A DNA stretch of 33,803 nucleotides from Advenella mandrilli. Lineage in GTDB: Bacteria > Pseudomonadota > Gammaproteobacteria > Burkholderiales > Burkholderiaceae_B. The stretch's first letter is position 1. Each line of letters begins with the position of its first letter. The DNA lies in contig NZ_JAENGP010000021.1 in assembly GCF_016595155.1 (NCBI RefSeq), positions 1-33,803 of the forward strand, read 5' to 3'. Both the position numbers and the translations under genes were made by a program. The notes beneath the pieces are model-generated. The model did no database searches. It had not been told where the DNA came from and was given only the letters and a program-made list of their open reading frames with translations. Below are positions 31,791-33,803 of the stretch, in pieces.

Positions 31791-32666
31791 ATGCCAGAGA
31801 TCGTTATTGAAACACGTCCCCATGATCTTGGTGGTGGATTTGAGGTGGGCCGGGTACTGCCTTTTCGCAAGCACCGCTCGGTGGGTCCCTTTGTTTTCTT
31901 TGACCGGATGGGCCCTCATGAACTGGCAGCCCCCATTCCACCAGAACGGGATGTGCGGCCTCATCCGCATATTGGCTTGTCTACCGTGACCTATCTGTTT
32001 GAAGGCGAAATGACGCATCGGGACAGTCTGGGCTATAAGCAGCTTATCCAGCCCGGCGAGCTGAACTGGATGACAGCGGGTTCTGGCATTAGCCATTCAG
32101 AGCGTTTTGATGGCATGCGTCCGGCGGGTGGGCGGCTGGATGGCATTCAGGCCTGGGTTGCCTTGCCCGAAGAATTTGAAGAAATCAAGCCATCTTTTGT
32201 TCATTATAATGAGTTTGAGTTGCCGGTCATGACAGAAGAGGGGATATGGGCCAGGCTTATTGCCGGTAGCGCTTTTGAGCTGGAAAGCCCGGTAACGGTA
32301 CATTCGCCGTTATTTTATCTGCACATGGAAGTGACGGCGGGCAAACGGGTACCGTTGCCCCAGGATTATGCCGAAAGGGCTGTTTATATTAATAGCGGCA
32401 AACTGCAGGTAAAAGGGCAAACGTATGTCGCTGGCCAGATGCTGGTTTTTGCCAAGGACAGTTTGCCTGTCGTGCAGGCACTGGAGAACGCCAGCCTAAT
32501 GCTTCTGGGGGGAGAACCTCTTGGGCCACGGCATATATGGTGGAACTTTGTTTCTTCCCGCAAAGAACGAATAGAACAGGCAAAGGAAGATTGGAAAGCC
32601 GGGAAAATTCCACTTCCTCCCGATGACCATGTTGAGTTCATTCCTTTACCGGAAACAATAGCATGA
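31791..32666 (+). CDS. Pirin family protein
   Basis: This is a 291-residue bicupin of the pirin family. The N-terminal cupin keeps the metal ligands: two His in RPHPHIGLSTVTYLFEG (about 57-73) and the later His/Glu in GSGISHSERF (about 98-107). The C-terminal cupin (HSPLFYLHMEVTAGKRVPLP onwards) is the regular degenerate one. Pirins are Fe-binding proteins, some with quercetinase activity and some acting as redox sensors of transcription. AGGA precedes the ATG. It is divergent from the MFS gene, so the two may share control. Confidence 0.93.
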   Translation: MPEIVIETRPHDLGGGFEVGRVLPFRKHRSVGPFVFFDRMGPHELAAPIPPERDVRPHPHIGLSTVTYLFEGEMTHRDSLGYKQLIQPGELNWMTAGSGISHSERFDGMRPAGGRLDGIQAWVALPEEFEEIKPSFVHYNEFELPVMTEEGIWARLIAGSAFELESPVTVHSPLFYLHMEVTAGKRVPLPQDYAERAVYINSGKLQVKGQTYVAGQMLVFAKDSLPVVQALENASLMLLGGEPLGPRHIWWNFVSSRKERIEQAKEDWKAGKIPLPPDDHVEFIPLPETIA

Positions 32667-32706
32667 TAATGTTATTCTGGATTTAACGTTAAGGATAATA
32701 AAGTCA

Positions 32707-32730
32707 ATCACCCCGCCCTGAAGGGCGAGG
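32707..32730. mobile_element. Left end of an IS200/IS605-like element carrying iscB
   Basis: The hairpin CGCCC-TGAA-GGGCG (32714-32727) begins the element. Subterminal hairpins of this kind are how IS200/IS605-type transposases recognise ends. The boundary lies about 40 bases after the pirin stop. No tnpA is seen between the end and iscB, and the right end is outside the window. Confidence 0.5.
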
Positions 32731-32989
32731 CTTGTGGGGTTAACGCTTCACAGGTCTGAGATTGTCCAGACCGAGCGCCTTGGCGCACCGTTGTACGTAA
32801 GTTCGTAGACCCACCTTGGGATGCTTCCTCAGTCCCAGGCCCTGGAAATCACCACTGCAGACACGCTTCGGGTAAGCACGAAACGGGCGGTGATCGAAAG
32901 CCCCAGGCTTTCAACTGGCGTACAACCTGGTCGAGGGGAGATGTCCGCAAGGACACGTTACCGCCGTAAGGCGAGAAAGGAGTAATCCA
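32711..32989 (+). ncRNA. Putative omega-RNA of the IscB nuclease
   Basis: This 279-base, strongly structured leader lies directly upstream of iscB, as omega-RNAs of IscB systems do. By eye it folds into a series of stems: GGTCTG/CAGACC (32753-32758, 32767-32772), GCGC-CTTG-GCGC (32775-32786), GAAAGCC-CCA-GGCTTTC (32896-32912), TGTCC-GCAA-GGACA (32942-32955) and CGCC-GTAA-GGCG (32962-32973). Two of the loops are GNRA type. The last hairpin runs almost to AAGGAG, the ribosome binding site of iscB. In known IscB systems the guide is the 5' end of the RNA, drawn from sequence just outside the element's left end (about 32,690-32,710). No fold calculation was run. Confidence 0.65.
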
Positions 32990-33803
32990 TTGGTTATTTT
33001 TGTCGTAGATAGGCACGGCAAACCGCTGATGCCCTGCCATCCGGCACGGGCACGGCAGTTGTTGCGTCAACGGCGGGCGGTGATTCACCGTCATATGCCG
33101 TTGGTGATCCGGTTAAAGGATCGCCGCCGGGATGAGAGTGCCCTCCAGCCGGTGCGCGTCAAACTGGACCCCGGCAGTAAAACAACGGGCGTGGCAGTGG
33201 TTCGGGCGTCAAGCACTGTTGACCCGGCGACCGGTGAAATTCAGCGCCAAGCAGCAGTGCTCGCCTTGATCGAGCTGGTGCATCGTGGACGCCAGATTAG
33301 CGAAGCGCTGACGGCCCGTCGACAGATGCGCCGTCGTCGTCGCGGGGAATTACGCTACCGCGCACCCCGCTTCTTAAACCGCACCAAACCTAAAGGCTGG
33401 CTAGCGCCATCCTTACAGCATCGGGTGGATACCACGGCAGCCTGGGTTACACGCCTCTCTCGTTGGGCGCCGATCACGGCCTTGAGCTCAGAGCTGGTGC
33501 GTTTCGATATGCAGCAACTGCAAAAGCCGGAAATTTCTGGCGTCGAGTATCAACAAGGCGCCTTGGCGGGGTACGAGGTGCGTGAATATTTGCTGGAAAA
33601 ATGGGGGCGCAAATGCGTGTACTGCGATGCGACGCAAACGCCGTTACAGATTGAGCACCTTCAACCCCGGGCACGTGGCGGTTCAAACCGGATCAGTAAC
33701 CTGGCCCTGGCGTGTGGCCCATGCAACCTGAAAAAGGCTGCCCAACCCTTGAGCACTTTTTTGGCTAGGGATCCTTTACGGTTGGCGCGGATTCAAGCGC
33801 AAG
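32990..33803 (+). CDS. iscB: IscB-type RNA-guided nuclease (partial, runs off window)
   Basis: The frame opens with TTG (32990) seven bases after AGGAG and stays open to the window end (271 codons), so the C-terminus is missing. The N-terminal PLMP domain is explicit (DRHGKPLMPCHPARARQLL, residues 7-25). RuvC-I is KLDPGSKTTGVAVV with catalytic D60. The arginine-rich bridge helix is RRQMRRRRRGELRYR (about 110-124), hence the RRXRR annotation seen in databases. RuvC-II carries E168 in SSELVRFD. The HNH insert runs from about 205 with two Cys pairs (C209/C212, C242/C245) and catalytic H223 in QIEHLQPRARGG. The order PLMP-RuvC-bridge-RuvC-HNH is the IscB architecture, the probable ancestor of Cas9. 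RuvC-III should follow beyond 33,803. All visible catalytic residues are intact. Confidence 0.93.
   Translation, partial: MVIFVVDRHGKPLMPCHPARARQLLRQRRAVIHRHMPLVIRLKDRRRDESALQPVRVKLDPGSKTTGVAVVRASSTVDPATGEIQRQAAVLALIELVHRGRQISEALTARRQMRRRRRGELRYRAPRFLNRTKPKGWLAPSLQHRVDTTAAWVTRLSRWAPITALSSELVRFDMQQLQKPEISGVEYQQGALAGYEVREYLLEKWGRKCVYCDATQTPLQIEHLQPRARGGSNRISNLALACGPCNLKKAAQPLSTFLARDPLRLARIQAQ

Follow-up and report, generated by a model that had tools for sequence, protein, structure and literature searches.

An IscB (OMEGA) element with its omega-RNA, inserted 5' of an ATGA in Advenella mandrilli

The right edge of the Advenella mandrilli DNA analyzed here (33,803 bases, hereafter the window) holds a reading frame that a preliminary description took for an IscB (OMEGA) nuclease gene, running off the end of the DNA behind an apparently structured leader. 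What is this unit, where does it end, and how is it placed with respect to the genes around it? Window positions 32990 to 33802, on the forward strand, correspond to the first 271 codons of iscB, open from a TTG and cut by the contig end at 33803. The product scores 362.7 bits against the NCBIfam model NF040563 (cut-off, 175) and contains the Pfam domains RRXRR and HNH, and among solved structures, those of IscB match it best, namely TbaIscB (9k30; E = 6.5e-36) and OgeuIscB (7xht; E = 1.3e-18). All of the hallmarks listed beforehand are in place: PLMP at residue 12, RRQMRRRRR from residue 110, cysteines 209, 212, 242, and 245, and, assigned by sequence motif, the RuvC-I D60 (codon 33167 to 33169), RuvC-II E168 (33491 to 33493), and HNH H223 (33656 to 33658). 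The TTG start at 32990 is indeed preceded by a good ribosome binding site (AAGGAG, 32977 to 32982). The accompanying claim that callers restricted to ATG would miss the gene did not hold, as the translation permits a start at M14 (33029) instead, which would trim the PLMP domain.

The leader was proposed to be a structured omega-RNA, and comparison with the covariance model bears this out. The HEARO family RF02033 matches window positions 32703 to 32946 (forward strand) with 90.2 bits, close to the gathering score of 83, spanning the whole model (positions 1 to 211 of 211), and the match sits 5' of the nuclease gene, as is typical of HEARO RNA. RNAalifold predicted 52 consensus pairs for 20 aligned leaders, with 37 of the 52 changing on both sides in at least one sequence; the single-strand fold of the leader is only modestly better than that of shuffled sequences (z = -2.38; 6 of 200 shuffles fold equally well or better). 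Since both parts exceed the cut-offs of curated models and IscB structures are the nearest solved ones, the original assignment stands: judging from the sequence, the window unit is an IscB nuclease gene with its omega-RNA, belonging to an already known kind. It shares with IscB (NF040563; OgeuIscB 7xht and TbaIscB 9k30) the PLMP motif, the RuvC split by HNH, the arginine-rich bridge, and the upstream omega-RNA, and differs in its TTG start and in being read for its first 271 residues only. A relative, the IsrB of Desulfovirgula thermocuniculi (DtIsrB), presented in its report (PMC9581776) as a nickase without an HNH, differs from the window protein, which has this domain. The nuclease itself is one of many, and the added value lies in an element with mapped empty sites.

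The frame stops at 33803 because the window is the entire contig C12 of genome G000 (38 contigs), and the break is probably one of assembly, since a second copy of the element, on contig C17 and 93% identical, ends in the same bases. Indeed, C12 and C17 (93.2% identity over 1,102 aligned columns) both end in exactly 127 identical bases, and contigs C10 and C21 both open with element right halves that again have exactly 127 identical bases in common, a symmetry to be expected, we infer, of an assembler working with 127-base words. Three iscB copies are present in the genome, on C12, C17, and C31, the one on C17 being truncated at the same residue as that of the window. A rightward extension, suggested in the preliminary description, could be achieved in part: the window edge is the end of the contig, but the right part was found on C10, with 205 bases, as reckoned on C31 coordinates, unread between the two. 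C10 was chosen as the right part of the window copy by its empty site and its reading frame, and iscB continues there on the minus strand, from 35338 downwards, to end at the start codon (ATG) of a sixA-like gene. The RuvC-III motif, expected farther along the protein, is present in the sister copy C31 (KTHALDAACVG), that of the window copy falling in the unread gap. No stop, which had been named beforehand as evidence against the unit, precedes the element end in the recovered right part, read there in the frame of C31, and both the window copy and the C17/C21 copy are open across all of their read parts.

The insertion site could be defined by comparison with two relatives of the same genus, G001 and G002. 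To the left of the element, and outside it, lies an intact pirin-family gene (31791 to 32666, forward strand; Pfam Pirin and Pirin_C), in a region whose DNA is about 83% identical in both relatives. In these genomes, immediately after pirin comes the gene that C10 carries beyond the right end, which encodes a histidine phosphatase (Pfam His_Phos_1) and is here termed sixA-like. With a slash marking the junction, the empty site reads ...AACATTAAGGATAAAAAA/ATGAAAACC in G002, with one extra A in G001, and the occupied site reads ...AACGTTAAGGATAATAAA/GTCAATC in the window and ...CGCAAGTTG/ATGAAAACC on C10. Therefore, the element (GTCAATC...CAAGTTG) was inserted without duplication between an AAGGAT and the start codon (ATG) of the sixA-like gene. 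Its left end is at 32703 (forward strand), the same base as HEARO position 1, and AAGGAT (32691 to 32696) presumably serves the interrupted gene as Shine-Dalgarno sequence. As read from these junctions, this Shine-Dalgarno sequence remains on the far side of the element, and the ATG after the right end is the start of the sixA-like gene.

The recovered right halves also define the end of iscB. The frame crosses the right-end hairpin and reaches the final bases of the element, a feature by which the window clade differs from IscB (NF040563), and the stop TGA is composed of TG from the element and A from the target, so that it overlaps the ATG of the host gene. The C17/C21 copy has the same placement, here in front of a UDP-glucose dehydrogenase gene, and both G001 and G002 hold the corresponding empty site. 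Of the five insertions in the genome, all but the C31 iscB copy, which lay outside the comparison, gave an empty site, each 5' of ATGA; no HEARO match was detected in G001 or G002. These empty sites allow the guide, the target, and the ATGA motif to be written down and tested directly. The guide is likely the flank before 32703, presumably positions 32683 to 32702 on the forward strand (the length being our estimate), which the empty sites join directly to ATGAAAACC, and the TAM is likely ATGA. HEARO RNAs were reportedly placed beside ATGA or GTGA when first described. The likely TAM agrees with the DtIsrB report (PMC9581776), according to which this protein prefers an NTGA TAM and cleaves both TTGA and ATGA targets, TTGA being favored at 60 C.

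Elements of the IS200/IS605 type are marked by subterminal hairpins, the lack of target duplication, and a fixed short target. In agreement with this, the window element has a left-end hairpin (CCCCGCCCTGAAGGGCGAGG, 32711 to 32730, forward strand) almost identical to the hairpin at the right end on C10, as well as empty sites and an ATGA target. A profile search detected no Y1 transposase in genome G000, 5 of 14 control genomes giving a match, and none in the close relative G002. Y1_Tnp matches were obtained in 12 of the 13 other genomes searched, weak ones in G012 and G014, none of them linked to acting on these ends. Because a Y1 transposase was not found in its genome, we call the element non-autonomous and do not file it as an insertion sequence.

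Taken together, these data make it quite probable that the locus holds a HEARO-type IscB (OMEGA) element, its read parts lacking a transposase gene, that inserts precisely 5' of ATGA; we extend this estimate to a guide drawn from the flank, cutting of the empty allele, and stop-start reinitiation. The left flank would serve the omega-RNA as guide, and IscB would cut the empty allele, in which this flank is followed by the ATGA TAM, with repair from the occupied copy restoring the element; movement would need a Y1-type transposase acting in trans. Ribosomes may reinitiate at TGATGA, where the iscB stop lies over the host start, and so keep the host gene translated. Since the element sits in the leader of the sixA-like gene and would take the ribosome-binding region of that gene as guide, one could also imagine a domesticated regulator, with the omega-RNA and IscB controlling the gene or its operon instead of serving the element. 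We regard this as very improbable, as all nuclease motifs within the read part are conserved, copies occupy three loci, and G001 and G002 have no HEARO match.

The other copies in the genome show how the element decays. In the C31 copy, a stretch of 190 bases between two 11-base repeats is gone, and with it the 3' part of the omega-RNA, the iscB start codon, and PLMP; in the window, where this stretch is present, the repeats (CGGGCGGTGAT) lie at 32884 to 32894 (forward strand) and 33074 to 33084. Two 44-base mini-elements (G000:C31:69444-69487 and G000:C11:177689-177732) consist of the left end fused to the right end via the shared hairpin. The first has an empty site in G002, and the second has empty sites in G001 and G002, with an alignment gapped left of the junction. 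A wide search for the mini-element pattern across 12 genomes returned one copy, already known. These losses, in one of three iscB copies and in two insertions reduced to 44 bases, together with the lack of a Y1 transposase in the genome, would fit a dying remnant without function. Such a reading is unlikely for the window and C17/C21 copies, whose frames are open as read, whose catalytic residues are conserved, and whose omega-RNA is paired. Separately, two matching solo ends (TTGACATCCTCCCCGCCCTGAACGACGGGGTTTTACGCGCAAATCC) of another element type, possibly TnpB-type, were noticed at G000:C23:11514-11548 and G000:C11:165626-165660.

Returning to the element that we favor, does its position at a start codon extend beyond this locus? 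We considered an IscB lineage in a start-codon niche, in which the RTGA TAM would amount to "start codon plus A," copies lie behind the Shine-Dalgarno sequence and in front of the ATG, with that region as guide, and the right end keeps the gene translated, either by the overlap of the iscB stop (window clade) or by a terminal Shine-Dalgarno sequence (cyanobacterial, actinobacterial, and other branches). This proposal is tentative, and we incline somewhat against it as a whole. A competing reading is an ordinary IscB element with the RTGA tetramer as its only rule, in which starts would be overrepresented because in-gene insertions disappear whereas those in transcribed leaders last, without any adaptation to start codons; we give it slightly less than an even chance. 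Within genome G000, the C31 copy and both mini-elements speak for the latter, as they lie at ATGA sites that open only short frames (16, 18, and 7 codons); intact copies are at start codons in two of two cases versus none of three for decayed copies, numbers too small to lean on.

A protein scan for relatives kept 80 of 106. Outside genome G000, 46 elements had a HEARO-defined left end, and the right-end motif, with two mismatches allowed at most, could be located in 29; the remaining 17 were left uncounted. ATGA adjoins this motif in 27 of the 29; in the remaining two (L129 and L134), the script misplaced the end, and the true end also precedes ATGA. An open frame of at least 80 codons starts at the ATG in 22 of the 27 elements, compared with 827 of 2,917 control RTGA sites in the same flanks, and a Shine-Dalgarno match of at least 4 bases ends the left flank in 16 of 27 versus 674 of 2,917. 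Both features occur together in 13 of 27 elements and at 213 of 2,917 control sites (P = 1.3e-8, the copies not all being independent). Among the 48 genome loci read, the stop is completed at the junction or is the TGA of ATGA itself in 12 (L025, L026, L027, L030, L031, L032, L033, L035, L060, L066, L081, and L100); L068, whose right end is unplaceable, also overlaps ATGA, and in the remaining loci, the stop lies elsewhere, mostly earlier inside the element. The IscB elements of Cupriavidus, Polaromonas, Herminiimonas, and Alcaligenaceae (L025, L027, L032, L060, and L124 to L126) resemble that of the window in their ends, their junction stop codon, and their insertion before an ATGA at the head of a gene-length frame or an annotated gene, except that the second copy in L124 stops earlier and the left end of L060 is off its contig. 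Their host genes are others than those of the window; therefore, so are their presumed guides.

Annotated gene starts were assessed on plasmids, in 27 of 76 matching records, with one place each plus one neighboring copy, two of the records being unannotated. The control, one 50-kb plasmid stretch, had 30 gene starts among 161 gene-sparing RTGA sites, about 19%. In the first batch, 12 of 16 copies were at an annotated start (binomial P = 1.5e-6), with the boundary uncertain by one ATG codon in 4 of these 12 (L124b, L130, L135, and L138) because the sequence is ATGATGA. In the second, mostly cyanobacterial batch, which includes the near-duplicate pair L158 and L159, 1 of 10 copies was exactly at an annotated start and another was at an ATGG start; taken alone, this batch has no excess over the control, in keeping with an RTGA-only rule. 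Both batches together give 13 of 26 (P = 2.9e-4), or 11 of 24 (P = 0.002) without two near-duplicate insertions of the first batch. The first-batch and overall counts argue against the RTGA-only rule, for which gene avoidance predicts about 19%, but the excess over this expectation could still be accounted for if transcribed copies persist. In two phyla, on a Deinococcus plasmid (L131) and a Trichormus plasmid (L137), an IscB element was seen between genes of the ParA and ParB families, at the annotated start of the latter.

The termini were also compared for a second device compatible with host translation. In several distant branches (e.g., L052, L056, L063, L069, and L137), a GAGG-like sequence lies 5 to 7 bases before the ATG at the element end. 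GTGAGGTTTTT/ATGA is common to L049 and L069, and TTACCGAG is common to L048, L056, and L137; since differing sequences follow these shared ones, the motif is the element's own in the five copies. Several related elements, five Marinobacter copies among them, lack both devices: their right ends show no overlap of stop and start and no 4-base Shine-Dalgarno match. A clean dichotomy between the two devices fails on this third group, and because of it we treat adaptation of the ends to keep the host gene translated as a hypothesis. The interesting part of the find is the putative start-codon niche. No start-codon insertion by IscB or HEARO was described in the titles and abstract openings searched, a literature outside of which most subscription journals fall. 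Start-codon sites and termini that might permit translation of the host gene suggest a low-cost life in operons for a programmable nuclease element and, if true, the niche would also yield natural guides and TAMs for a whole IscB clade. The precise insertion at a start codon, together with an overlapping stop completed by the target, is the part that a specialist may find worth testing.

Further observations were made alongside. Group II introns lie inside the IscB omega-RNA in the Cupriavidus necator C39 plasmid p1 (L168, 1756 to 4510) and in Microvirga massiliensis (L065, 1223 to 3936, where the 5' part was recognized by eye), in different hosts but at about the same conserved loop (ATGCTTC/CTYAGT). 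Both carry reverse transcriptase/maturase frames, split into two frames in the Cupriavidus copy, and the guide RNA of these elements would need splicing to be whole; no title on a group II intron in IscB or omega-RNA was among the literature matches listed. Finally, a manganese yybP-ykoY riboswitch (75.1 bits) was identified on the minus strand of L019 (G000:C10), at positions 1097 to 1272.
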